Shown here: positions 3,957-18,318 of the stretch, piece after piece
Numbering within the stretch: position 1 is the first letter of the stretch
How the letters are laid out: each line of letters begins with the position of its first letter
Assembly (NCBI GenBank): GCA_002841685.1
Contig: PHAM01000023.1
Location: 1 to 27,720, forward strand
Direction of reading: 5' to 3'
DNA length: 27,720 nucleotides
DNA from: Elusimicrobia bacterium HGW-Elusimicrobia-2
GTDB taxonomy: Bacteria > CG03
Notes under the pieces: generated by a model
What the model was told of the DNA's origin: nothing
What the model saw: the letters and a program-made list of their open reading frames with translations, nothing else
Database searches by the model: none
Program-made: the position numbers and the translations under genes

Positions 3957-4004
3957 CAAATGTGAATATTGAAAAGACTTTGCGGAAATGGTAATATCCA
4001 TTGT

Positions 4005-4667
4005 ATGAAGAAACAAGCAATTCGCGTTAAAAACAGCCGGCGGGGCTTTACATTGCCGGAAGTCATGCTGATCGTAGCTGTCGCGGCCATACTCACGATC
4101 GGCAGCAGCCTGAAATTTGTCCAGCTGCGCGACAACATCCGTATAGACAGGGCAAAAGCCCAGATGAAAGTCCTGCAGATCGGCCTCAGAATGTACTACG
4201 CCGATGTCGGCCTTTTCCCGATACGCGCTAAAGTCGGCGACGGCATCGGTTATGACGGTTTATCCGACTGGCAGGATTATCTTCTGACCGGCGACCGTAT
4301 AGGCGCATCGGCGAACGATGAAGACACGGATAACGACCAGAGAATCGATAACTGGCACGGCAAATATATTGATGAGCAGTCCATACTGACCGATCCGTGG
4401 GGCAACAGTTTTTTGTACATCAACTGCACGCATCAAGATTCGAGAAAATCAGGAATTCTGTGCTGGGGGCCGCAAGGATACACCGGCGCAAGCGCCGGAA
4501 CCGACTGGGCTAATTATTTCAAGAGCGACGGCACGGGGTTTTCATGGGCTTCCGGAACAAAAGATACAACCGATCCCCCTGACGATGAGGGCTTTTCGGT
4601 TTTCTATAGAAACGGTGACCCCGCAAACGCTAAAACCGACTTCATCATGGTCCTCTGGATGGAATAA
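4005..4667 (+). CDS. type II secretion-type major pseudopilin (GspG-like)
   Basis: This 220-residue protein has a prepilin leader ending RRG, then FTLPEVMLIVAVAAILTIGSSLKF. Cleavage should fall between Gly14 and Phe15, with Glu19 as the conserved Glu5 of the mature pilin. The leader is followed by a single membrane helix. The body includes DEDTDNDQRID (about residues 105-115), an acidic loop like the calcium sites of GspG pseudopilins. DPWGNSFLYIN follows near residue 130, a GspG signature. The protein is longer than classical GspG (about 140 residues), with an extended C-terminal region. The ATG at 4005 gives a normal leader; an in-frame TTG at 3969 would add 12 residues. No secretion partners or prepilin peptidase lie nearby, so it is an orphan here. 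Confidence 0.87.
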   Translation: MKKQAIRVKNSRRGFTLPEVMLIVAVAAILTIGSSLKFVQLRDNIRIDRAKAQMKVLQIGLRMYYADVGLFPIRAKVGDGIGYDGLSDWQDYLLTGDRIGASANDEDTDNDQRIDNWHGKYIDEQSILTDPWGNSFLYINCTHQDSRKSGILCWGPQGYTGASAGTDWANYFKSDGTGFSWASGTKDTTDPPDDEGFSVFYRNGDPANAKTDFIMVLWME

Positions 4668-4679
4668 GTTAAACAAATT

Positions 4680-5912
4680 TTATTTTCTTGATATAAACCG
4701 TTTCAGCCATTTCAGATATGAATCCACATTGACGGCAGAAATATCTTTTTTAATAAAAAAATCTTCTTCCGTAAGGCAAATTATTTTCCCTTCTTTAACT
4801 TTTAATCCCTGAAATACTTTTTTATACCGTTCTATGGAAGCGGCCATGCCTAAGTTTGGGGTTTTGCTCAGTTTAATTTCCAGAGGATAAACTTCCAAAT
4901 TTTTTTCCAGTATCAAATCAATTTCTAAATTATTCTGCGTCCGCAAATAAAATAAATCCGGCTTCCGCCCACTGTTCATAAAACATTTAACTGTTTCCTG
5001 AACGACAAAATTTTCAAACATGGCGCCGGCCATAGGGCCTGTCAGCAAATGCTCTTCGGTTTTTATCCCTGTCAGATAGCAAACCAGTCCCGAATCAAGG
5101 AAATATATTTTCGGACTCTTGGTAATTCTTTTGCCGTAATTCCGCCAGAAGGGCGGCAAAACATAAATAATGCGGCTTGCTTCAAGCACGGAAAGCCATT
5201 TTTTTACTGTGTTTGCGCTCACGCCCAGATCTCCTGACAAACCGCTAATGTTGAGTATTTGAGAACATCGAGAAGCCAGCAGATGGAGAAACCGCTGAAA
5301 TTCCCTGAGAATTCCCACATTATAAATTGTCCGAACATCTCTTTCCAGATAAGTTTGGATATAACTGCCATACCACACGCTTGAATCAATTTTTGAATCA
5401 ATGTTTATTTCCGGGAATGAGCCTCTCAGACAAGAATGAATAAAAGCATTTTTTACATTTAAAAGTTTCCTTTTTAGAGCCGGGATTTTTCTTTTCTCTT
5501 CTATACCGAAAGGCAGCAAATCAAACAGGGCAATTCTGCCGGCAAGAGTATCCCCGAGATTCTTAATAAGATTAAATTGCTGAGAACCCGTAAAAATAAA
5601 TCTTCCTTTCTTGCGCCGATCACCGTCAATAAGCATTTTAATATACGAAAGAATTTCGGGCACATATTGAATCTCATCAAAAACCGCTTTGCTGCCGGCC
5701 GCCTCAAGAAAAAGCTTTGGATCAGCGATGGCTCTTTCCCTTATGAGCGGATCATCAAAAGAAATAATTTTGTGACTTTTCTCAAACAGTTTTCGCACTA
5801 ACGTGGATTTACCCGACTGGCGGGGGCCGGTCAGGGCCAACGCAGAAAAACTTTTTATCTGCTTTCTTAAAACTTTCCCTATTTCGCGGTCAATATATAT
5901 TTGTTTCGCCAT
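4680..5912 (-). CDS. AAA+ ATPase with DUF4143 domain
   Basis: This 410-residue protein has a Walker A motif GPRQSGKS at residues 29-36, Walker B AVFDE at 76-80, and sensor FTGSQQF near 107. The C-terminal DUF4143 part ends in a PD-(D/E)xK-like arrangement (EIDLILEKN ... YPLEIKLS, about 335-355). The family is widespread, patchily distributed and often horizontally moved, and its cellular role is unclear. The gene is visibly richer in A and T than its neighbours, which suggests acquisition. Its stop lies 12 bases from the gspG stop (convergent). A near-consensus promoter ends seven bases before the ATG, and no ribosome binding site is visible, so the mRNA should be leaderless. It lies downstream of the giant coiled-coil genes on the same strand. 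Confidence 0.92.
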   Translation of the reverse strand: MAKQIYIDREIGKVLRKQIKSFSALALTGPRQSGKSTLVRKLFEKSHKIISFDDPLIRERAIADPKLFLEAAGSKAVFDEIQYVPEILSYIKMLIDGDRRKKGRFIFTGSQQFNLIKNLGDTLAGRIALFDLLPFGIEEKRKIPALKRKLLNVKNAFIHSCLRGSFPEINIDSKIDSSVWYGSYIQTYLERDVRTIYNVGILREFQRFLHLLASRCSQILNISGLSGDLGVSANTVKKWLSVLEASRIIYVLPPFWRNYGKRITKSPKIYFLDSGLVCYLTGIKTEEHLLTGPMAGAMFENFVVQETVKCFMNSGRKPDLFYLRTQNNLEIDLILEKNLEVYPLEIKLSKTPNLGMAASIERYKKVFQGLKVKEGKIICLTEEDFFIKKDISAVNVDSYLKWLKRFISRK

Positions 5913-5979: not shown

Positions 5980-8900
5980 CTATCTCCCAAAAATCTTTTT
6001 CAGTATTCCCTTTTTTGATTCTTTAAGTTCTTTTTCCAAGTTCTCTATTTCCATCGCCAGCTCTTTACGCGTGGCATCGGTGAGATAGAATTTGTCCAGC
6101 AGTTCTTTCCTTTCGTTATGCCATTCGTCGCGCCTTCTGTCAAATTCAGAGAGCTTTCTGTTTATAGACGATTCGTATCTTATCCTTTCGTCTTCCCTGC
6201 TGTTTTTCTCCCTCTCAAAAAGCGTACGCAATGTCGCCAGCTCATTGCTAAGCGAGTCTTTCGCCATGCCCACCTGCGAAACACGCAGCTTATAATCGTC
6301 ACGAACCGCGTTTTCACGGGCGTAAAACTCGGCTTCGACCGCCGCCTTCTCTTTCTCGTAAAGCTCATTGCGGCTCTTGATGCCGCTTTTTAGATTCTCT
6401 ATTTCAATACCGCGTTTCTCGGCGTCAAACTGTGCCTGTTTGAGTTTTTCGCTGAAAGCATCGTAGGAAACCTTCATGGCGGCGAGATCATCAGCCATGA
6501 GATTTTTTTCGTTTCTGAATCTGCCGATAAGCTCTTCTTTTTCAGCAAGGGAGTTTTTCAGATTAACAAGGGTATTGTTAAGATTTTCTCTCTCCGAGGC
6601 GAAAGCCTCTTTTGTCCTGAGCAGTGCGTCTTTAGCGAAATGTTCGGAGGCGGCGATCCTGTTCTCCCTTTCGTTGAGCGCTCTCTCCTTAACCTGCAAT
6701 TTTTCGGCGTGTACGCTTTCCGCGACCAACTGTCTTTCCAGAGAATTTATTTTTTCGGCCGCGGCCCTCAGTTCGCTCTCACGCTCCGAGAGCCGTTTCT
6801 GCCACTCGATGGCGATGAGCTCTTTGTCATTATTGGCCTTTTTAGCGACAGCGTCTATTTTCTGCAGCTGCTCGCTGGTTTCCGTGAATTTGTTGTAATA
6901 CTTACCGACCTCTTCCCTGAGCCTGTCCCTCTCCCTCAAAAACTCAAGTGTCTTTGATTCAAGCTCATTCTTCCGCCGGCGCTCTATCTCAGAGACCCTA
7001 TCCTGCAGAGCCGCTATCTCTTCTTCCCTGCCCGACAGCTTATTCAGGAGATCCTTTTTTTCCGTTTCAAAAAATTCTTTCAGCTGGCGCTCTTTTTGGG
7101 CGCCCATCTCCTTAAAACCCCGCAGAGCGTCTTCCCTGTTGTTTATTTTGATCTCCAGAGAATTCTTTTCGCTGATAGCGCCGGAAAGCCTCGCGTTAAG
7201 TTCCCTGATATCTTCCTCGCTCTTCTTGACCAAAAGAGCCTTATCGTTCTCATATAAAGAATTAAGCTGCGATATTTTTCTGTCTTTCTCGCAGAGGATC
7301 TCATTCAGTTCGCGGACCGACGCCTCCGTGTGGATGCGGATCTCCTGAAGTTTCTTTTCCAGCCTCTCCGTTTCCTCAAGCAGTTTAGACCTTTCCATGG
7401 CGAAGGAAGAATCCCTGCCTCTAAGCTGTTCTGAATATGCCTGTGACGATCGCTCGTTTTCCCTTGAAAAACTTTCAAGCTGCAGGCGAAGCTTTTCCTG
7501 TAATTTGGATATCTCGAGTTTGAGGCCCGATATCTCTATCTCGCGGGATTTGATCTCGGATGAGAGCGCCGCTTCCCGCTCCCTCATCCTCGTGTCCGCG
7601 AAACCGAGTTCCGTTTCTCTCGCTTTAAGCGCCGCGTCAATAACGGCTATCTGCTTTTCGGCGCGGGCGCTCATCTTGTTCTTTTCGTCTTCTTTTTTGC
7701 TAAGCTCCTGCAGGAATCTTTCCCGCTCCGACTCAAACTGACGGCGGGCGGCGAAGATCTCGTCTTCAAATTTGTGACGGATTTCCGCAAGCTCCGTCTC
7801 TTTCATCCGGGATGCCGCCTGTATCACGGATTCTTTTTCGGAAAGCACTTTTTTGAGCGCCTCTATGTCATTTTCCTTCTCTTCAAGAGTTTTGGCCAGT
7901 TCTCTGGACTGACTCTCAAAAAGGGATTTGAATTCCGTGAGCTCATTTATTCTGGCGTTGAATTTCTCCACCAGTTCGCGCTCTTCCCTGCGTTGAACTG
8001 TTTTGACATCTTCTATTTCATTGAATTTCTCTTTCTGTTTGGCGAAGATCTCTTCTTCCGCGAATTTGAGGCGCCGGGACCAGTCGGAATTGACCTCGTT
8101 GATCTTATCCGCCAGGCCTCTTATCTCTTCTTCCCGAATAGCTGTTTCTTTTTTATATTCCTCGTCGCGGCCGGCGAGCATAACCCTCGCGCGCTCGGCG
8201 GAGACCTTCAAATCCTCTATCTTGGATGTAAAATTACTCCGCTGTGAATTGAGCTCCCTTGCCAGCTCCTCAAGTTCCCTCTCTTTTAGAAGCAGCGTCT
8301 GGGCAACACGCTCTTTCTCATCGGCGAGACGCTGAAAACGCTGGGCCTCATCAGCCATGCGTTTTTCAAAATTTTTCTTTTCTTCTTCCAGCCGCCCTTT
8401 TAAAAAGCGTATCTGCTCGGAGGACTGATCAGCGACAGCATCGAGCTCTCTTGTCTTGGAATCCAGGGCGATGCGAAAATCCGCCTTGTCTTTCTCTATC
8501 TGTTTCTGAAGAGCGAATATCTCATTGTCTTTCTGCCTGATATTTTCCGAAGCCGTATTCCTCGCGTTTTCAAGCTCGGCTTCAAGCGCACCTGCCTTGT
8601 CCTCTAACTCTTTTACACGCTTATCTTTTTTCTCAAGCCTCACGGACCATTCATCTCTGAGCGAATTCTCCCTCAGAACGGATTCCGCCCTTATGACATT
8701 TTCCGATTCCTCAAGTTCAAGGATACGCCTTGACCGTTCCGCCAGATCCTTCTCATATTGCTTTTGCGAATCCGCCTGCAGTTTGCGGGTATCGGATAAC
8801 CTCTCATTAAACTCTTTATCCGCCGCGGCGTACTTTTTGGAGATATCGCTCACATCCCTGTCTTTAAGCTGCACCTGGGCGGCATAATTGGCTCTTTCCG

Positions 8901-9615
8901 CCTCAAGCGAAGTCTTGAGCTTAATTATCTCATCTTTCAGATCCATGATTTTGTTATTAAGCTCATTTTCGCGCAACACATTCTCGCCCCTGACAAGGCT
9001 TGTTTCTTCTTCCGCGAAGGTCAGTTCGCCGCTCAGGCTGTCCAGTTTTTCTCTCAATTGGGCTATATTTTTCTGGTAATCCGATATTTTCGTCTCACGG
9101 CCCCGTATACACTCTTCTTTTTCAGCCCGGAAAGCGCCCTGATCATCTTCCTGTTTCTTCCGAATAAAAGAAATATTTTTCTCCAGGGCTTCTATCTGTC
9201 TGAGCAGATGCTCTTCCCTCTCCACAAATTTACGGCGCTCATGCTCCTGGCCCGTCACAGCTTCGGATTCTTTTACGGCGAGTTCCGCATAAAGGGAATT
9301 TTTCTCGAGCTCTCTGTTGTTCAGGAGTTCTTCCCAGGTTTTTCTGTCTGAGGCGTACTCGTCCCTGGCCTTGTCAAGCTGCGATTGTAAATCCTGAATG
9401 CGGGACATCAGGCTGTTTTCCCTTTCCTTGAATTCCGTGCGCAGAGCTATATTGGCGGTCGTGGCCTCAAGCAGTTTTTCCTGATGGATATTTCTGGTTT
9501 GCTCCAAAGAGTTTTTGAGAAATTCTATCTCGGAAAGCATATTTTCCTTAAGCTTGCCCAGCGAAGTCAAAGATGCGCCGTGGCGTGCCGGTTCGCGTTT
9601 GTTTTTATCCATCAT
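5980..9615 (-). CDS. giant coiled-coil protein, second of the pair (1211 aa)
   Basis: This 1211-residue protein is almost entirely predicted coiled coil. I find a single proline (residue 9), two cysteines, no signal peptide and no membrane helix. Heptads of Leu/Ile/Ala alternate with Glu/Lys/Arg to the end. A motif like (K/R)-E-x-x-(L/I) recurs near residues 63, 99, 131, 171, 214, 251 and beyond, roughly every 32-42 residues. The last residues, KKGILKKIFGR, form a short basic hydrophobic tail that could bind a membrane or a partner. A continuous helix of this length would be near 180 nm. It starts ATGATG inside the stop of the upstream partner gene (4-bp overlap), so the two are translationally coupled. 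No SMC or Rad50 ATPase head is present. A cytoskeletal, scaffold or filament role is inferred. Confidence 0.9.
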   Translation of the reverse strand: MMDKNKREPARHGASLTSLGKLKENMLSEIEFLKNSLEQTRNIHQEKLLEATTANIALRTEFKERENSLMSRIQDLQSQLDKARDEYASDRKTWEELLNNRELEKNSLYAELAVKESEAVTGQEHERRKFVEREEHLLRQIEALEKNISFIRKKQEDDQGAFRAEKEECIRGRETKISDYQKNIAQLREKLDSLSGELTFAEEETSLVRGENVLRENELNNKIMDLKDEIIKLKTSLEAERANYAAQVQLKDRDVSDISKKYAAADKEFNERLSDTRKLQADSQKQYEKDLAERSRRILELEESENVIRAESVLRENSLRDEWSVRLEKKDKRVKELEDKAGALEAELENARNTASENIRQKDNEIFALQKQIEKDKADFRIALDSKTRELDAVADQSSEQIRFLKGRLEEEKKNFEKRMADEAQRFQRLADEKERVAQTLLLKERELEELARELNSQRSNFTSKIEDLKVSAERARVMLAGRDEEYKKETAIREEEIRGLADKINEVNSDWSRRLKFAEEEIFAKQKEKFNEIEDVKTVQRREERELVEKFNARINELTEFKSLFESQSRELAKTLEEKENDIEALKKVLSEKESVIQAASRMKETELAEIRHKFEDEIFAARRQFESERERFLQELSKKEDEKNKMSARAEKQIAVIDAALKARETELGFADTRMREREAALSSEIKSREIEISGLKLEISKLQEKLRLQLESFSRENERSSQAYSEQLRGRDSSFAMERSKLLEETERLEKKLQEIRIHTEASVRELNEILCEKDRKISQLNSLYENDKALLVKKSEEDIRELNARLSGAISEKNSLEIKINNREDALRGFKEMGAQKERQLKEFFETEKKDLLNKLSGREEEIAALQDRVSEIERRRKNELESKTLEFLRERDRLREEVGKYYNKFTETSEQLQKIDAVAKKANNDKELIAIEWQKRLSERESELRAAAEKINSLERQLVAESVHAEKLQVKERALNERENRIAASEHFAKDALLRTKEAFASERENLNNTLVNLKNSLAEKEELIGRFRNEKNLMADDLAAMKVSYDAFSEKLKQAQFDAEKRGIEIENLKSGIKSRNELYEKEKAAVEAEFYARENAVRDDYKLRVSQVGMAKDSLSNELATLRTLFEREKNSREDERIRYESSINRKLSEFDRRRDEWHNERKELLDKFYLTDATRKELAMEIENLEKELKESKKGILKKIFGR

Positions 9616-12600
9616 AAGCCCTCATTGTCACTGTGCATTCCCGATTTAAAAGATTCAAGACGCAGGCGGATTGAGGAAAGTTCCTCCTCAAGAGCCCTGT
9701 TAATATCCGCCAGCTCCCGGATCTCATTATTCAATTTTATCTTATCTCCGTCAAAATTATTTTCCGCCTGATGCAGGCGTTCGGCGAAATTATCCGCGAG
9801 GATCTGTTTTTCCCGGGATAGTTTTTTGCGTTCTTCCGTGATTTCCTCTCTCAGGCCCTTGATCTCATCGCGAAAAAAAGCCATTTCTTTTCCATATTCT
9901 TCCTCTCTTTTTGAAGAAACCTTCTCATAATCCGAAGCCTTGCGGCGCGACGCGGCTTTCAGGGCGGTCATTTCCTCGGCGGCGGCATCGGCCGCCTCTT
10001 GTTTTTTCTTGGTCTCATCCTTAAGTTTCATATCGCGTATTTTCAGCTGATTCGCGAGCTGGGCCATCTGCTCTTTCGCTTTTGCGGCATCATTTTCCCT
10101 GGCTATCCTCAAAACAGTGATTTTTTCGCCCAACTCCGCTATTCTGCCCTCGAGAGCGTTTTTCTCAGAGTTCAATTCATTTTCTCTGAGCTTAATTTCC
10201 TCACGCAAAAGCTGACCGGCCTGCTCCAGCCCGGCTATCCTGCTGTTTAGCTGCGAGCTCATTTCTTCTTTTCCCCGCAGCGCCAAATCTGCGGCGGCAG
10301 CCTTTTCCTTTTTAAATTCCTCTCCTCTCACGCGGAGAGCATCCTCATTTTTCTTGATTTCCGCGTCCTTTTTAAGGAGAGCGCTATTCAATTCTTCAAA
10401 CTTCTTCTCATAGTTTTCCGCGGCCGAGATAAAAGCCTTATCTTTTTCGGCTGTCAGATCCATATAATGTTTTTTCAGATTATCCTGCGCGGAGGAAAAC
10501 TCGGTTCTTTGTCTGACAATTTCCGACTTGAGCGCAGCGGCGGACTGCTTCAGCCTGTCTGTTTCGGCGGCTTTTTCTATTATAAGGACATCCGTCTTCT
10601 TTTTCGCCTCCGTTATTTCCTCCCTGAAGCCCGATCGCAGAGAATCAAGCTCCTCTTTCAGCGCCTTGTTCTCTGAAATGATTTTTTCACGCGCGTGGAT
10701 CAGTTTTTCCTCACTCTCGCTCTTCTGAGCGGAAAGATGATTGATCTGTTCCGCCAGACGGCTGAGCTCGCTGTCCTTTGCCTTCACCATATCCGCGAAA
10801 TCCGTTTTAAGACGCTCAAGATGCCGGTCACGATCCGCGATCTCATCCTGTTTTTCAAGGAGCCTTTCACTGAACGACTGCGTAATATTCCGTTTATCAT
10901 CCTTTTCTGAGGCGAGATTAGCGGCAAGTTTCGCGTTCACGGATGAGAGCTCCGAAGACGACACCCTGCTCTTTTCCAGATCTCCCGTGAGAATAACCAG
11001 TTTCTCGTTCAAAGAGGATATACTGTTGTTCAGAGCATCTTTCTCCGAAACGCGCAGAGCGTTCAGCCCCTCAACCTCTTTTCTGTGGGCATTGAGCTCC
11101 GAGGCGAGATCCGACTCAACTTCCTTTATTTTTCCGGATAGCATCTCTTTATCTTCCTGGAATTTCCGGGCGTTCTGCATTATAGTCGCGCGGAGTTTAT
11201 CGCTTTCGGCGGCATGAGAGTCTTCTTTCTCGGAAAGCTTTCTCTGCATTTCGTCACGCATCTGGAATAAAGCCGTTTCTTTATCCGAGACGGCTTTCTG
11301 CCAATCATTTTCTTTCGCCTGGAAATAAGCGTCCTTTTCTCTGATTTTCTCAGCGAACGCTTCTCCCTGTATCCTGATTTTGTTTTCGGATTCATCAATC
11401 CTGTTTCTCATCTCTTCAGCGCGAAGATTGGAATTCCTCTCGATCTCGGCTTTTTCCTTCGCGGCCGCGTTAAAACGGATCTCACCCTCAAGCCGGGTAG
11501 ACTCCATATCTCTCTTTAATTCCAAAACGGTTTTATCACGCTCTTCAATATCTTCCGCGTGAGCGCGCTTTTCATTTTGCAGGTTCATTTCCAACAGGGC
11601 CTTCTTCTCGGAAAGTTCGGCGAACCTCAGCGCGGATTCTTTTTCTCTTTCCTTCACGAGCATATTAAGTTCGGATATTTTTGCGGCGGCGGCCTCTTCC
11701 TGTTTCCGCGATTCCTCGGCAATACGCGAAAGCTCCCCGCGAAGATTTTTGTCCGCATCTTCAAGGGCGGCGATCTTGATCTGCAGCCCTGTTGTCTGAC
11801 GGGCGGCGGCGGTTTCAATGGAGGCCATGGCCTGCTGCCTTTGAATAAGCTTCTCTTTCAGCGATGAGATTTCTTTTTCAAGAAGCTCCTGTATGTGCCT
11901 TTTTTCGTCAGCGAGCGTGAGGTACTGGGCGGAATATTTATTTTCCATTTCCCTGTTTTTTTCGCGCTCACGAACGATATCTTTTTCCAAAAGGGCCTTT
12001 TCCGTTTTAAGGATTTCCTCTTTCTCCAAGAACGCGGCGGCTGATTTTTGAAGCTGGGCATGCAGGCGTTCATTTTCGGCGGACGCCGTTGACAAAGAAT
12101 TCCGCAACTCTATCTCCATAGACCGCGAAACGGATTCCAGCTGGGCTATTTTGTTATTGTACGAGTCCTTTATATCCTCATTGATTTTTTTAAGTTCCGA
12201 AACGCTCTTGCCGAGCATCGCGGTCTCCGAAGCCTTTGACTGCAATTCGGAGTTGAGTTCATACTGAATGCTGCCATGTTTTTTCGCAAGTTCCTCTTCC
12301 CTGGTCTTTGAAGATAAACGAAGCTCATCAAGTTTCCTGCGGAGGGATTCGTTTTCGATTTTCGCTTCCTCCAGCGCGTTGCCCAGTGATGATCTCCCCT
12401 CGGAGGCCCTCAGAACCTCTCCCTTCAGCTTATCCTCATATTCGGACACTGTCTGCCTGTGCGCGTCCTTGAGGGCATTCACCGTATTTTTCAGAGCTTT
12501 TATATTCTGCTGCATCGTGAACTTCTCGCGCTCGAATTCGCCGCGTTCCACAGCAAACTGCGAAGTTAAAGCCAGATGCTCTTCTTTCCTTTTATCATTG

Positions 12601-13094
12601 GCCGCGCGGATTTCAAATTTGAGGGATTCCATCTGCTTCTCAAAATCTTCCCGGTCAGCCGAAAAATTCTTTTTCAGTATCTCTATTTCGTCTTCTTTTC
12701 TCTGCTGTTCGTGTTTTTCGGCGCGAAACTTCTGATTGAATTCAGACATGAGATCGGACTCTATCTCAACAGTTCTCAGGTTCAGTTTCTGTATGATGCT
12801 GTCTTTTTCGGCCAGGTCGCGGTCTATTTTCTTTTCGCGTTCGGTGAGGGCATATTCCCGCTGCGCGATATTTTTCTCACGCGCGTCCATCTCCGAAAGC
12901 CTGGCGCGGTAAGCCCTGTTGATCTTAGCTGTTTCTATGGATGAGCGCGCCTGAAGATATGCCCTGCTTTTTTCCAGGGCCTCTATTTTTTCCCGCAGTC
13001 TCGTTGTTTCCTCGGCCTGTCTTTTATGCAGGTCCGTGACCTGCCTCCCGAGCGCTATTTTGAAGTCTTTTAAATTATCATTTTCTGGCTGCAT
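9612..13094 (-). CDS. giant coiled-coil protein, first of the pair (1160 aa)
   Basis: This 1160-residue protein is predicted to be one long coiled coil. The only proline I find is residue 3, and I see no cysteine. There is no signal peptide, membrane segment or enzyme motif. Charged heptads (Glu, Lys, Arg with Leu, Ile, Ala) run from about residue 20 to 1150. Composition and texture are close to the downstream partner, so the two may be paralogues or co-assembling subunits, though I could not align them. It begins at the ATG at 13094 (M-Q-P-E-N) with GGAG eight bases upstream, behind a strong promoter. The stop overlaps the start of the second gene. Coiled-coil composition produces spurious similarity to myosin, SMC and filament proteins, so such database hits should be discounted. 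Confidence 0.9.
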   Translation of the reverse strand: MQPENDNLKDFKIALGRQVTDLHKRQAEETTRLREKIEALEKSRAYLQARSSIETAKINRAYRARLSEMDAREKNIAQREYALTEREKKIDRDLAEKDSIIQKLNLRTVEIESDLMSEFNQKFRAEKHEQQRKEDEIEILKKNFSADREDFEKQMESLKFEIRAANDKRKEEHLALTSQFAVERGEFEREKFTMQQNIKALKNTVNALKDAHRQTVSEYEDKLKGEVLRASEGRSSLGNALEEAKIENESLRRKLDELRLSSKTREEELAKKHGSIQYELNSELQSKASETAMLGKSVSELKKINEDIKDSYNNKIAQLESVSRSMEIELRNSLSTASAENERLHAQLQKSAAAFLEKEEILKTEKALLEKDIVREREKNREMENKYSAQYLTLADEKRHIQELLEKEISSLKEKLIQRQQAMASIETAAARQTTGLQIKIAALEDADKNLRGELSRIAEESRKQEEAAAAKISELNMLVKEREKESALRFAELSEKKALLEMNLQNEKRAHAEDIEERDKTVLELKRDMESTRLEGEIRFNAAAKEKAEIERNSNLRAEEMRNRIDESENKIRIQGEAFAEKIREKDAYFQAKENDWQKAVSDKETALFQMRDEMQRKLSEKEDSHAAESDKLRATIMQNARKFQEDKEMLSGKIKEVESDLASELNAHRKEVEGLNALRVSEKDALNNSISSLNEKLVILTGDLEKSRVSSSELSSVNAKLAANLASEKDDKRNITQSFSERLLEKQDEIADRDRHLERLKTDFADMVKAKDSELSRLAEQINHLSAQKSESEEKLIHAREKIISENKALKEELDSLRSGFREEITEAKKKTDVLIIEKAAETDRLKQSAAALKSEIVRQRTEFSSAQDNLKKHYMDLTAEKDKAFISAAENYEKKFEELNSALLKKDAEIKKNEDALRVRGEEFKKEKAAAADLALRGKEEMSSQLNSRIAGLEQAGQLLREEIKLRENELNSEKNALEGRIAELGEKITVLRIARENDAAKAKEQMAQLANQLKIRDMKLKDETKKKQEAADAAAEEMTALKAASRRKASDYEKVSSKREEEYGKEMAFFRDEIKGLREEITEERKKLSREKQILADNFAERLHQAENNFDGDKIKLNNEIRELADINRALEEELSSIRLRLESFKSGMHSDNEGL

Positions 13095-13140
13095 TCATAT
13101 TTCTCCATGATGCCCGCAAGGGCGGTAAACATATAGACTA

Positions 13141-13170
13141 TTTATACATTAAAGCGCGCCTGTTTGTCAA
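13141..13170 (-). promoter_or_regulatory. sigma70-type promoter for the coiled-coil operon
   Basis: On the minus strand, TTGACA (13170-13165) is followed after 18 bases by TATAAA (13146-13141). This gives a leader of about 40 bases before the ATG at 13094. The leader includes a small GCCC/GGGC hairpin and a GGAG ribosome binding site. The match to consensus suggests substantial expression. Confidence 0.75.
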
Positions 13171-13395: not shown

Positions 13396-14148
13396 ATGAG
13401 TCAGAAAGAGTATCATGTGGCGCTGGGCAAGGGCGATGTGGGAAGATATGTTCTTCTTCCGGGAGACCCGGGCAGAACGGAAAAGATCGCGAAATATTTT
13501 GACGACGCAAAAGAGATCGCGAACAACCGCGAATACAGGACATTCACGGGAACTGTTGGCGGTATTAAAATAAGCACCACTTCCACCGGAATTGGATGCC
13601 CTTCAACGGCCATCTGCGTTGAAGAGCTCATAAAATGCGGCGCTGACACTTTCATACGCATAGGCACCGCCGGTTCACTTCAGAAAGAGGTGGGGCTGGG
13701 CGATGTCGTCATTTCCACAGCGGCCGTGCGCGAAGAGGGGACAACGCGGCAGTACATACCTCTCAGCTATCCGGCCGTGGCGGATTTCGGCGTGACGCAG
13801 GCCCTGGTTGAAGCGGGCAACAAACTGAAAATAAAATATCACACGGGCATATCGCACTGTAAAGACGCTTTCTACACCGAGGGGGCCGACATGGACGAGC
13901 TGCCTCTGGGCGGGAACACAAGAGCAATGTGGAACGCATGGTATAAGGGAAATGTCCTGGCCACCTCCATGGAATCGGCGGCGCTTTTTGTCGTTTCATC
14001 CATAAGAAGGGTTTACGCCGGAGAAGTCCTAGCCATCATAGGCCTTACCTATGACGACCAGCCCATCGCGAAAAAAGTGGGAGTGGACGAGGCCATACGG
14101 ATGGCTATTGAAGCGGTGAAGATTATTGAAAAAAAACGCAATCCCTGA
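13396..14148 (+). CDS. udp: uridine phosphorylase family protein
   Basis: This 250-residue enzyme would cleave uridine with phosphate to uracil and ribose-1-phosphate in pyrimidine salvage. Visible family motifs are LLPGDPGRTEKIA (about residues 21-33, phosphate binding), STGIGCPSTAICVEEL (55-70), RIGTAGSLQKEVGLGDVV (about 84-101) and ATSMESAALFVVSSI (the ribose-binding Met-Glu, near 187-201). Length and order match Udp of enteric bacteria. Related purine phosphorylases cannot be wholly excluded, but the N-terminal PGDPxR motif with VEEL favours Udp. The ATG at 13396 is preceded by AGGGGGG. Only 25 bases separate it from the DUF5693 gene, so it is probably the first gene of the long operon. 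Confidence 0.88.
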   Translation: MSQKEYHVALGKGDVGRYVLLPGDPGRTEKIAKYFDDAKEIANNREYRTFTGTVGGIKISTTSTGIGCPSTAICVEELIKCGADTFIRIGTAGSLQKEVGLGDVVISTAAVREEGTTRQYIPLSYPAVADFGVTQALVEAGNKLKIKYHTGISHCKDAFYTEGADMDELPLGGNTRAMWNAWYKGNVLATSMESAALFVVSSIRRVYAGEVLAIIGLTYDDQPIAKKVGVDEAIRMAIEAVKIIEKKRNP

Positions 14149-14173
14149 CACCATCGGCGGTAATTAACACGCA

Positions 14174-16060
14174 ATGAGAAAAAATAACGTTATATTCTTT
14201 TTTCTTTCGCTGGGTTTTGCTTTTTCAATTTTTGTACTCTCCAGAAGGATAGCACTCGAAAAAACGCTCAACACTATTGAGACAGCTGTTGATTTCGCTG
14301 ACATCCGGCGCCTCGCGGGTATCTCCGGTAAAAGCGCCGCCGAAATAATGCCCGAGCTCAAAGATGTCGGTATCACAAGCGTCGGAGTGGAGGAATCCAC
14401 CGTCAGGGAACTGAATGACAGGGGGCTGGTCATCCTCGCCGACGGCAGAGAGGTGAACAAATGGAAATACATCTTCAACCGCTCACCCGATTTCCTCGAG
14501 TCGCAGCAAATCGCGAACAAGGCAGACTATACCTATATCTTTACCGAAAATCCCTCTCTGGGCATGATGATCAAAACCGCGCTGCTGATAAAACTTCCCG
14601 GAGTGTCTGTTGTCGGCACTTACACGGGGCGTTATTATCTCGTGATAGCTCGCGCGGACAAACTCACCGTGGAAAATATAGGGCTCGGGTTCTGGGAAGA
14701 AGAAGTGAGCGCGGTCAAAGCGGCGGGGTTCAATTATATCCTCAGGCCCAGCCATGACCCGCTGGTAACGGACGCATGGATTGAAACTCTTTTCGACAAA
14801 TATGCCGGCGATGAAAAGCTGACCGGTATTCTGCCCTCGGGAAACAGGATCCCCGGAGCTGCCGAAAAACTCGCCGAGGAAGCGGGGAAACTGAATATGG
14901 CTTTCGGCACAGTGGAGTTCGCCCAGATTGCCGGCGCGATGGAGACGGCCGCGAAACTCGGAAAGACATTCCTCTGCTTTTCCCCTAAGGGTGAAAACGC
15001 GTCGGTGAAAATCAAGGCCTGCCTGAGGAGCTTAAGAGAAAGAAATGTACAGCTCATCTACATCCATCCCGCCGAAGAGACTTATTCAGAATTCCTCGCT
15101 TACGCCGGCGCCATCAAACGCGGCCTGTCAGAGAATTCTTTCAGAAGCGGCAAATTCACCGCTCTCCCTTTGTGGGACGGAGATTCCTACTCCTTTCTTT
15201 TGATAAGCCTCGCGACGCTCGCCGGAGCCCTCTGGCTCTTATCCATTATAGCCAACACGGGACGCCAGTTTGAAATTGCCTATGTCGTCATAGCGCTGGC
15301 CTGCTCAATATTTTTTTCCGCTTCTACCTCATGGCGGCTTTTTATCGCATTTCTGGCCACGGTGACATTTCCGGTGCTGGCCATATCCAAAACATGGGCG
15401 AAACCGGAGTTGCCGCCTCTGACGGGAGCATTATGGCTTTTCCTGAAAGTTTCGTTTATCTCGCTGCTGGGAGGGATTTTCGTTTCGGCGATCCTCTCAT
15501 CCACCGATTTTATGGTGAAGATAAACACATTCAGAGGAGTAAAACTGTCTCTCATACTCCCTCCCGCCCTGGCTTTTGTCATCCTTTACGGACGTGAACG
15601 GAGCTATTTTTCAACAAGCCTGAGCAGATTGTGGCACAAACGGCTCGAGGTGCGGCACCTTTTTTTCGGGATAGGCATAGCCGTGTTTCTACTCCTCATG
15701 ATCCTGCGAAGCTCCAACAAGATGAGTTTTGTGCTTCCTTTTGAAATGGAAGTGAGGGAGGCCCTTGAAAAATTTTTCTTCGCGCGGCCGCGTTTTAAAG
15801 AATTTGCTGTCGGGCATCCTCTGATGATAATGGGTTTTTACTTTTACGCAAAGGCCCCGAAAATAAAAAAAATACATTTCCGGCCTCTCATCATCCTCGG
15901 GCTGATCGGCCAGGTGTCCATCATAAACACCTTCGCTCACATACACTCACCGATAGGGATATGCCTGTTCAGAACCGTCAACGGTATTGCTTTGGGGGCA
16001 TTGCTGGGAGCCTTATTGATCGCGGCTGACGGCTTTTTCAAATTCATAGATCATAAGTGA
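14174..16060 (+). CDS. DUF5693 family polytopic membrane protein
   Basis: This 628-residue protein has an N-terminal membrane helix (about residues 5-25) and a large soluble domain on the outer face (about 26-330). That domain includes VEESTVRELNDRGLVIL, and several short blocks resemble a TIM-barrel layout. A C-terminal region of roughly seven to eight membrane helices (about 335-625) follows. This architecture matches DUF5693 proteins, which are often encoded beside csaB, as here. The biochemical function is unknown. I infer a role in export or modification of a pyruvylated surface polymer, based on position only. The ATG at 14174 has a poor Shine-Dalgarno. The stop overlaps the GTG start of the next gene in the sequence GTGA. 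Confidence 0.8.
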   Translation: MRKNNVIFFFLSLGFAFSIFVLSRRIALEKTLNTIETAVDFADIRRLAGISGKSAAEIMPELKDVGITSVGVEESTVRELNDRGLVILADGREVNKWKYIFNRSPDFLESQQIANKADYTYIFTENPSLGMMIKTALLIKLPGVSVVGTYTGRYYLVIARADKLTVENIGLGFWEEEVSAVKAAGFNYILRPSHDPLVTDAWIETLFDKYAGDEKLTGILPSGNRIPGAAEKLAEEAGKLNMAFGTVEFAQIAGAMETAAKLGKTFLCFSPKGENASVKIKACLRSLRERNVQLIYIHPAEETYSEFLAYAGAIKRGLSENSFRSGKFTALPLWDGDSYSFLLISLATLAGALWLLSIIANTGRQFEIAYVVIALACSIFFSASTSWRLFIAFLATVTFPVLAISKTWAKPELPPLTGALWLFLKVSFISLLGGIFVSAILSSTDFMVKINTFRGVKLSLILPPALAFVILYGRERSYFSTSLSRLWHKRLEVRHLFFGIGIAVFLLLMILRSSNKMSFVLPFEMEVREALEKFFFARPRFKEFAVGHPLMIMGFYFYAKAPKIKKIHFRPLIILGLIGQVSIINTFAHIHSPIGICLFRTVNGIALGALLGALLIAADGFFKFIDHK

Positions 16061-16956
16061 CCAAAACAATATTTGCCGCCGGATATTTCGGCTACGGCAA
16101 TTTCGGCGATGAGCTGATCAGGGATATTTTCACCTCACGCATGAGCGCCTGGAACATCGCATATATCCCCCGCATGAAAACAAAACCGTTATCGGCCTTT
16201 ATCTCGATCGTGAAGTCAGACGCTGTCGTCTTTCCCGGCGGAAGCGTTTTCCAGGATGAGACATCAACGCTGTCTCTTTTTGTCTACGCATCCGTGATTT
16301 TCGCCGCCGCCCTGCTGTCCAAACCGGTCTTTCTGCTCGATTCCGGATTTGAGGTGCGTAAACCTCTCAACAAAGCGCTCCTGCGCCTGGCGCTGAAACT
16401 CACCGCTTTTATAAGTGTTCGCGACACGGCCTCTTTTGAGCTTCTGCGGGCGATGGGTCTGAGCCCTTTCAAGAGCGCCGATTGCGCTTTTTCGCTAAAA
16501 AACTTCCCATGCCGCCAGCTCGTTCCTCCAGAAACAATAGGCGTTATTCCCCGCCGAAAAACCGGCGAGGTGAAGGAGGCGATATCACTGTGCCAAAAAA
16601 AGTGGCCGGGAGCGAAATTTAAATTCGCTGTTTTCAGCCCCGGGGATATGCCTTCGGCGCGGCGTCTGGCCGGAGGCGGGGAACCCGTTCTCATAAAAGA
16701 TATGCCGGGGGTGGGAAAATTTTTCGCCGGCTGTGATTTTTTCATACTCACCCCTTACCACTCTCTATTACTGGCGGCAGTCTCCGGCGCGGATTTCACC
16801 GCCGTGACGTATTCCGCCAAGACGGCAAATTTCATGAAGGATATGGATAAACTCTCGTCTACAAACAAGAGAAACCGCTCGGAGCTGCCGCGTATCGCCG
16901 AAGAATGCGCTTTTCAAATCTTTCTGAATTTATTAAAAGATAAGCTGGAATTATGA
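16057..16956 (+). CDS. csaB: CsaB-like polysaccharide pyruvyl transferase family protein
   Basis: This 299-residue cytoplasmic enzyme belongs to the polysaccharide pyruvyl transferase family, with a GT-B-like fold. The N-terminus AAGYFGYGNFGDELI is characteristic. VVFPGGSVFQDETS (about residues 52-65) and a C-terminal ILTPYHSLLLAAVSGADF (about 231-248) also fit. CsaB adds ketal-pyruvate from PEP to a secondary cell-wall polymer, which then anchors SLH-domain S-layer proteins. That function is known from Gram-positive and a few diderm lineages. Pyruvylation is inferred here. GTG at 16057 overlaps the previous stop by four bases, and the 3' end overlaps the FtsE-like gene by four. Neighbouring DUF5693 supports the assignment. 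Confidence 0.82.
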   Translation: MTKTIFAAGYFGYGNFGDELIRDIFTSRMSAWNIAYIPRMKTKPLSAFISIVKSDAVVFPGGSVFQDETSTLSLFVYASVIFAAALLSKPVFLLDSGFEVRKPLNKALLRLALKLTAFISVRDTASFELLRAMGLSPFKSADCAFSLKNFPCRQLVPPETIGVIPRRKTGEVKEAISLCQKKWPGAKFKFAVFSPGDMPSARRLAGGGEPVLIKDMPGVGKFFAGCDFFILTPYHSLLLAAVSGADFTAVTYSAKTANFMKDMDKLSSTNKRNRSELPRIAEECAFQIFLNLLKDKLEL

Positions 16957-17558
16957 AACTACTCATTAAAGCTGAAAATCTATGGCTTGAAAACAGCCGC
17001 GCGGTTGTTTTCAAAAATGTGCATGCGGAAATAAAGCAGAGGGATTTTGTCTGGCTGGAAGGCGCGGGCGGGTCCGGGAAAAGCCTTCTTATGCGCACAC
17101 TCGCCGGTAGACTGAAACCGTCCAAAGGGCGGCTCCTTTCTTACACCGCAGTCCCCCTGTGCACACCTCAGGCCGCTCTCCTTGAGAACGAAAGCGTAAA
17201 AAACAACATTAAAGCCCTGCTACGGGAAAAAGAGGACACGACCTTTGCCATGGCGGAACTTATGAAAAGCATGCGCCTTTTCGATTTGAGAAATATCCCC
17301 GCGAAAACTCTCTCCGGAAACCAGCGGCAAATGCTGAAGCTGGCGACTTTTCTCGCGCTCGAAGATGAAATACTCTTATTTGATGATCCTCTCGCCGCGC
17401 TTGACAATGAAAACCGCATACGCTTCATCCAGGCCGCTGAAAAAAAACACGCCATGGGCACGGCAATGCTGATTTCAAGCACTCTCCCGTGCCCTGCCGC
17501 CTGCCCGGCCGGCACGAGGCATCTGCTCCTTAAAGATGGAAAACTCAGCGAGGAATAA
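16953..17558 (+). CDS. ftsE: FtsE-like ABC transporter ATP-binding protein with altered catalytic residues
   Basis: This 201-residue ABC ATPase lies directly before an FtsX-like gene, which is the basis for calling it FtsE. Walker A is GAGGSGKS (37-44), the Q-loop Gln is at 73, the signature is LSGNQRQ (120-126), Walker B ends FDD (133-135) and the D-loop is AALD (138-141). The catalytic Glu after Walker B is Asp135. The H-loop His position (GTAMLISSTL, 159-168) appears to be Thr167. The signature also reads SGNQ instead of SGGQ or SGGE. ATP binding should be intact, but hydrolysis may be slow. It is shorter than E. coli FtsE (222 residues). FtsE with FtsX controls periplasmic wall hydrolases at division. 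The 3' end overlaps ftsX by 23 bases. Confidence 0.78.
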   Translation: MKLLIKAENLWLENSRAVVFKNVHAEIKQRDFVWLEGAGGSGKSLLMRTLAGRLKPSKGRLLSYTAVPLCTPQAALLENESVKNNIKALLREKEDTTFAMAELMKSMRLFDLRNIPAKTLSGNQRQMLKLATFLALEDEILLFDDPLAALDNENRIRFIQAAEKKHAMGTAMLISSTLPCPAACPAGTRHLLLKDGKLSEE

Positions 17559-18318
17559 ACTGATTGCGCTGATGGCGCACGCGCTTTTCCTGACATGCGC
17601 GGGAGCGCTTTTTATGTTCTGCGGATCTTCGGGACGATATTTTGAAAAACTAAAAAACAGCGTCTTCATAACCGCTTACACGGAATGCCGCTCAGAGGCG
17701 GATCTGGCCGCGGTCAAAAACAGGATCGCGGCGATCTCCGGAGTCAAACACATCGTCATCCTCACGGAAAACGAGGTGTTCGCGGCGCTCGAGGGCGCAC
17801 TGGCAAAAAAGGATATACTGCTTTCGATCAAGGATATAGAAATTCCATCCATTCTGAAAATTTACCCGGGCACACTCAATTATGAACGCTTCGGAAAAAT
17901 CGCGGAGCAGATTAACGCCCTTGCCGAAATCAAATCTTCCGACACAGGGGGCAACGCCGTAAAAAAACTTTTTGTCTTCGCGTCAGATTTCAAAAAAGCT
18001 GTCCGCTTTATAACAGCCCTGCTCATATTAAGCGCCCTGGCCTCCGCGGCCGCCGCATTCGTGTCAATGAAATATCTCTCAGAAAAATTTCAATTCCTTG
18101 CTGAGAGAAATGTGCCCCGGCGAGACATCGTTTTCAAATATGCCGCTGAAATTACCCTGATTCCGCTGTCTTCCCTGATCATATCCATACTGATTCTGCT
18201 GGCCTTCTATCAGACAACCGGCGGGAACACCATGGTTTTTTTTACCTACCCGCGGACACTCCTTTTGCTGCTTCTCGCATCCCTTCCGTCTGCGGTTCGA
18301 CTTATAAAAAGTGTTTAA
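17536..18318 (+). CDS. ftsX: FtsX-like permease protein
   Basis: This 260-residue protein shows the FtsX layout: one N-terminal membrane helix (about residues 8-30), a periplasmic domain (about 31-154, starting SVFITAYTE), and three C-terminal helices (about 155-177, 200-225 and 233-255). It is shorter than E. coli FtsX and lacks the long cytoplasmic N-terminal tail. In the known system the first periplasmic loop recruits EnvC, and the gene immediately after this one encodes an EnvC-like protein, so the set is coherent. It overlaps ftsE by 23 bases and the next gene by eight. Sequence similarity is weak, so the call rests largely on topology and context. Confidence 0.8.
   Translation: MENSARNKLIALMAHALFLTCAGALFMFCGSSGRYFEKLKNSVFITAYTECRSEADLAAVKNRIAAISGVKHIVILTENEVFAALEGALAKKDILLSIKDIEIPSILKIYPGTLNYERFGKIAEQINALAEIKSSDTGGNAVKKLFVFASDFKKAVRFITALLILSALASAAAAFVSMKYLSEKFQFLAERNVPRRDIVFKYAAEITLIPLSSLIISILILLAFYQTTGGNTMVFFTYPRTLLLLLLASLPSAVRLIKSV

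Follow-up and report, generated by a model that had tools for sequence, protein, structure and literature searches.

What can two very large coiled-coil genes, encoded side by side, build together in a bacterial cell? Giant coiled-coil scaffold proteins that have no enzymatic head are already known; headless large coiled coils with a role in setting length or shape have been described from only a few bacteria, and mostly as single proteins. Here, we have analysed such a pair of genes, which we refer to as A and B, in a window of 27,720 nucleotides (the whole stretch of DNA that was studied), which belongs to a 1.8-Mb assembly from an uncultured candidate lineage. A preliminary description of this DNA had read the two genes as a translationally coupled filament or scaffold system, built of rods and expressed from a strong promoter of its own.

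Composition and predicted fold of the two proteins

Gene A (9612-13094) and gene B (5980-9615) are intact, lie on the minus strand, as do all the features of the pair that are given below, and encode headless coiled-coil proteins of 1160 and 1211 amino acids, with exactly the coordinates and lengths first described. The single proline that the preliminary description saw in each chain is confirmed by a residue count (residue 3 in A, residue 9 in B); at the rate of the 16 other proteins of the window (189 prolines in 5196 residues), ~86 prolines would be expected in A and B together. The two chains were also said to have no membrane span, and their hydropathy agrees with this (over 19 residues, the Kyte-Doolittle mean never exceeds 0.5); what had been overlooked is an amphipathic tail resembling that of MinD at the C-terminus of B.

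No match has been found in Pfam or in PHROGs for either protein, nor in the sequences of the PDB for A or for the B profile, while the sole match in NCBIfam is a sub-threshold SMC coil on B (E 0.0016 and 16 bits, where the cut-off is 567). The models of AlphaFold2 are helical nearly throughout both chains, with low-confidence gaps at residues 710-749 and 1000-1017 of A, and with short breaks and a predicted turn near residue 837 in B; since their confidence is low (pLDDT 63 for A and 65 for B, pTM 0.22 and 0.27, respectively), they say only that no folded domain is seen. Independent folded domains, which would have spoken against a rod, are thus predicted in neither protein by Pfam, PHROGs, NCBIfam or AlphaFold2, and the rod-like, headless character that had been proposed for both proteins is supported.

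Neither A nor B can be assigned to a known family; we have searched both for the features that define the FilP/DivIVA group, the crescentin-type heptad rod and SMC proteins, and these are missing. The FilP/Scy/DivIVA group comprises long coiled coils in which heptads occur together with hendecads, the largest being Scy, at ~4 times the size of FilP, and is defined by an N-terminal GYDxxEVD motif that precedes the heptad coiled coil (PMC9858780); there is no GYD in A or B, and no match to the DivIVA family of Pfam. Crescentin and intermediate filaments have a heptad rod (period ~3.5) with a single stutter, a head and a tail, whereas A and B keep to a period of 3.576-3.578 throughout and have no separate head. 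The ABC-type ATPase head and the hinge of SMC, Rad50 and MukB are likewise not seen, both proteins being all helix with no Pfam domain.

Inheritance and expression of the pair

Seven genomes have contigs that permit a check, and A and B are inherited together in every one of them, so that the pair is kept in every relative where its conservation, on which the preliminary description had made its proposal depend, could be followed. These genomes span four genera and two families of one class: G000, G001, G002 and G003 form one genus, G005 and G006 belong to the same family, and G007 represents another family, with identities down to 22-29%. An eighth contig, in G004, ends inside A, and the contig of G002 breaks near the start of A; in G005, what looks like a frameshift (L020:8300-8490) divides gene A in two, and is either an assembly error or a real break. 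Orthology with the most distant family is well separated from chance for both proteins: the blastp E-value of A with G007 is 3e-15 versus 0.9 for the reversed-sequence control, and the phmmer E-value of B is 6e-52, with no match for its reversed control. The B profile matches 7 of the 386 genomes searched, all within the class and none outside it, and has no match in viral contigs and plasmids, while the A profile matches 8 of the 16 genomes of the phylum; in the phylum's other classes, no giant proline-free ORF has been found near the homologues of the flanking genes.

Selection on both genes is purifying, with dN/dS at 0.17-0.27 in A and 0.09-0.11 in B. The length of A is steady, at 1154-1163 amino acids, down to an identity of 22-24%, and many of the indels between the families measure 7, 11, 14 or 18 residues, which preserves the phase of the hydrophobic stripe described below. 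The indel rates of A and B are low, but not below that of SMC, and have therefore been dropped as special evidence. Three blocks stand out. Between the families, A is most conserved at residues 24-63 (12906-13025), with 48% in the best 40-residue window versus 21.5% overall, a value that lies at, and not above, the 99% permutation level. Near the other end of A, residues 1130-1143 (9666-9707; DINRALEEELSSIR) form a conserved C-terminal block, a candidate nucleation or docking site. In B, the conserved block is central (residues 603-642, 7690-7809) and exceeds the 99% permutation level, with 58% between the families versus 26% overall.

The A-B unit has a promoter (13141-13170) with the elements TTGACA (13170-13165) and TATAAA (13146-13141), separated by 18 nt, and with a conserved TTTAATGTATAAAT around the -10 element; this arrangement is kept upstream of A within the genus, a similar element occurs in G004, G005 and G006, and a weaker one in G007. 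The promoter attributed to the pair hence exists, is consensus-like and is conserved, but the strongest promoter in the scan of the window (5946-5919) belongs to the DUF4143 ATPase gene that lies downstream. A GGAG ribosome-binding site (13103-13106) is located 8 nt ahead of the start of A. The stop of A and the start of B share a 4-bp ATGA overlap (9612-9615), present in the window as first described, but conserved only in G000, G003 and G007 and missing in G001, G002, G005 and G006; because most relatives have lost it, the argument for translational coupling and equal synthesis of the two proteins is not supported.

The hydrophobic stripe and the C-terminal tail of B

The power of the hydrophobic periodicity is 72 in A and 30 in B, versus a permutation maximum of ~11. 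In A, it forms a single spectral line at 3.577 residues, i.e. one unbroken stripe, with a power of 68-85 in the orthologs (permutation maximum ~10) and a block coherence of 0.88-0.91 versus a null maximum of ~0.6. Across A and residues 1-950 of B, in four A and five B chains, the period is constant at 3.576-3.578 (parametric 95% ranges of about +/-0.001), versus 3.51-3.52 in SMC controls from the same phylum and 3.49 in the arms of E. coli MukB. An undistorted helix has 3.63 residues per turn, and by the same relation (PMC9858780) a period of 3.577 corresponds to a left-handed supercoil ~40% as strong as that of heptads. In B, the stripe shifts its phase by roughly half a period; this jump follows residues 957-983 in the first family and residue 1010 in G007, and is conserved (residues ~960-1000, 6616-6738), in a segment that evolves fast.

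Three short coiled proteins from the phylum's other classes (including L052:10030-10734 and L058:5009-5713) have periods of 3.56-3.58, so that the common period of A and B is no proof of their co-assembly and may be a general preference within the phylum. The same caution applies to a common origin of A and B, which hhalign suggests with a probability of 98.5% (E 2e-15), and which we do not claim, because the signal is largely one of common composition and period: reversed B still scores 4.5e-10, reversed A against B scores 8e-12, and one half of A against the other scores 3e-10.

At the C-terminus of B, the peptide KKGILKKIFGR (5983-6015) is a predicted membrane-targeting tail, in which KKGILKKIFG matches the membrane-targeting helix KKGFLKRLFG of MinD. 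Both proteins carry, at the C-terminus, a K-G-hydrophobic-hydrophobic-x-K/R-hydrophobic-F peptide that is identically spaced (PMC8155659); MinD is an ATPase, and B has only this tail in common with it. B ends in ESKKGILKKIFGR, its counterparts in G006, G005 and G007 end in EANKGIFRKIFGK, EAKRSFLSKLFKKTK and RLRKGFFSRLFGK, respectively, and E. coli MinD, as read from NC_000913, ends in EEEKKGFLKRLFGG, with KKGFLKRLFGG as its last residues. All seven B proteins carry this basic amphipathic pattern (KG-phi-phi-x-K/R-phi-F) at the C-terminus, while none of the others among 358 ORFs does so, and it has no internal match in 123,048 amino acids. The hydrophobic moment does not separate the tail of B from internal 12-mers, and neither does it separate the tail of MinD itself. 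In MinD, the tail is an amphipathic helix that targets the membrane, binds it firmly only when two or more copies are present and still works once moved to other proteins (PMC8155659). We take the tail of B as a putative membrane anchor; no MinD above the NCBIfam cut-off has been found in the window's own genome.

A proposed membrane-attached scaffold and its alternatives

The reading that we favour, at somewhat less than even chances and from sequence evidence, is a scaffold attached to the membrane and made of rods of fixed length (~170 nm), with A and B as its two chains. Each chain would coil in parallel into an extended rod of ~170-180 nm (1160 residues x 0.1485 nm give ~172 nm), whose left-handed supercoil is slow, and the length of the scaffold would be fixed, as it is set by the length of the chain. 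The C-terminal tail of B would fasten it to the inside of the cytoplasmic membrane, and would bind well only once coiling gathers several copies; a coiled-coil dimer or oligomer of B would provide the extra copies. A, which has nearly the same length and the same stripe period, would run alongside B or assemble with it. The oligomeric state, the membrane binding and the contact between A and B are candidate features of this scaffold, and a role in cell shape or in the organisation of the envelope is conceivable. The scaffold or filament reading of the preliminary description has thus been kept as far as the headless rods, their own promoter and the conserved pair are concerned, but not for translational coupling and equal synthesis; the membrane attachment gains new support from the tail of B. 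Neither MreB nor bactofilin is replaced by the pair, as MreB occurs in all 16 genomes of the phylum and bactofilin in 14 of these.

The closest functional precedent, by analogy, is HMW2 of Mycoplasma pneumoniae, likewise a very long coiled-coil structural protein restricted to related species: HMW2 is the molecular ruler of the attachment organelle, the length of which is determined by the HMW2 helix of ~190 nm, at ~0.15 nm per residue (PMC8191905). HMW2 has 1818 amino acids with 11 predicted coils over 1257 of them (PMC8191905), whereas A is one unbroken stripe, and the system described here has two genes and a membrane tail; the likeness is functional and we claim no relation in sequence. 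If the scaffold is real, a paired rod with a membrane tail would be an independent route to an internal scaffold of fixed length, with a stripe period held constant over ~1160 residues in a lineage that also has MreB and bactofilin. B also offers a clean test of a MinD-like tail as the anchor of a giant rod.

In a related reading, A, B or both are subunits of long cytoskeletal filaments, grown by end-to-end or lateral polymerisation, that set cell shape. Crescentin, FilP and the Ccrp proteins of Helicobacter form such filaments, and coiled-coil-rich proteins without other domains often polymerise; the conserved N-terminus of A and the conserved C-termini of both proteins are what end-to-end contacts would need. 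Polymerisation is, however, not predictable from coiled-coil content alone (PMC7002697), and A and B have no detectable relation to crescentin or to the FilP/DivIVA group. The charges do not favour it either: no long-period charge repeat is clearly common to all orthologs, and neither A nor B has a conserved attractive stagger beyond the i+3/i+4 signal within the helix, so that lateral packing of the intermediate-filament kind is not supported. Low p values for antiparallel self-correlation have been set aside, as the null is unsuited to self-comparison, and the acidic-residue periods near 12 that are seen in B orthologs are noted with no function deduced. We regard such filaments as possible, though rather unlikely.

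Known filament formers differ from the pair in several respects. Ccrp59 and Ccrp1143 of Helicobacter are two coiled-coil-rich proteins of a single genome with a shown or proposed cytoskeletal role (PMC2776988), and the Ccrp proteins of H. pylori make filaments and influence the helical shape of the cell; unlike A and B, they are encoded at separate loci (HP0059 and HP1143), are described as heptad-based, have filaments shown by experiment, and are described with no MinD-like tail in the accessible part of the source. Crescentin resembles the proposed scaffold as a coiled-coil rod that is membrane-associated in the cell, but has 457 amino acids, a heptad rod with one stutter and the ability to form filaments, and its association with the membrane needs its first 27 residues and is probably indirect (PMC10873595).

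In a stronger version of the scaffold reading, which we consider unlikely, A and B would wind into one heteromeric rod of ~170 nm with constant twist, tethered to the membrane by many MinD-like tails, i.e. a two-component, length-setting membrane cytoskeleton, which would be restricted to a single class of an uncultured phylum and would have no sequence relation to known cytoskeletal proteins. Equal periods and lengths fit a heteromeric rod and are no proof of it, and the charge correlation between A and B has no preferred stagger, parallel or antiparallel.

B could alternatively act as a golgin-like tether or spacer, with its C-terminus on the membrane and its far N-terminal end capturing a cytoplasmic object such as the nucleoid, a vesicle or an inclusion. 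The anchor at one end of B only, the conserved patches in its middle and at its C-terminal end, and the phase jump near residues 960-1000, which might serve as a flexible joint on the membrane side, all suit a tether. There is no indication of which object B would capture, and the equal length and period of A favour a joint rod over the second, separate rod or adaptor that A would then have to be; we hold both the tether and this role of A to be unlikely.

It is very improbable that the pair serves a type IV pilus or a type II secretion machine as an accessory, a reading suggested by a GspG-like pseudopilin gene (3969-4667, plus strand), convergent with B and kept beside the pair in both families, where it is one or two genes away in G000-G003, G006 and G007; it lies on the opposite strand and so is not in an operon with the pair, does not adjoin it in G005, and has no other pilus gene nearby. 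A headless descendant of an SMC-like or Rad50-like chromosome protein is hardly credible in spite of the faint NCBIfam match of B, given the missing ATPase domain and hinge, the period of 3.577 against that of SMC, profile comparisons that are not significant (probabilities of 5% and 1.5%) and the ordinary SMC of the phylum's other classes.

The genes around the pair call for a few further observations. An AAA_14/DUF4143 ATPase gene (4680-5912, minus strand) lies between B and the pseudopilin gene only in the window's genome and is probably a recent insertion, since it is missing from the sister genome G003, whose B is 97% identical; its promoter is a perfect TTGACA-16-TATAAT that ends 7 nt ahead of the gene start. 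On the plus strand, from 13396 to 18318, a nucleoside phosphorylase, DUF5693, a polysaccharide pyruvyl transferase, an ABC ATPase and a membrane-protein-like ORF of 260 amino acids follow in a row; in the phylum's other classes, DUF5693 and the polysaccharide pyruvyl transferase are located a few genes from smc instead. In G007, a small membrane protein (L022:1165-1701) is encoded beside MurI/QueD-like genes, and its relatives number 2-11 matches in each other phylum genome searched.
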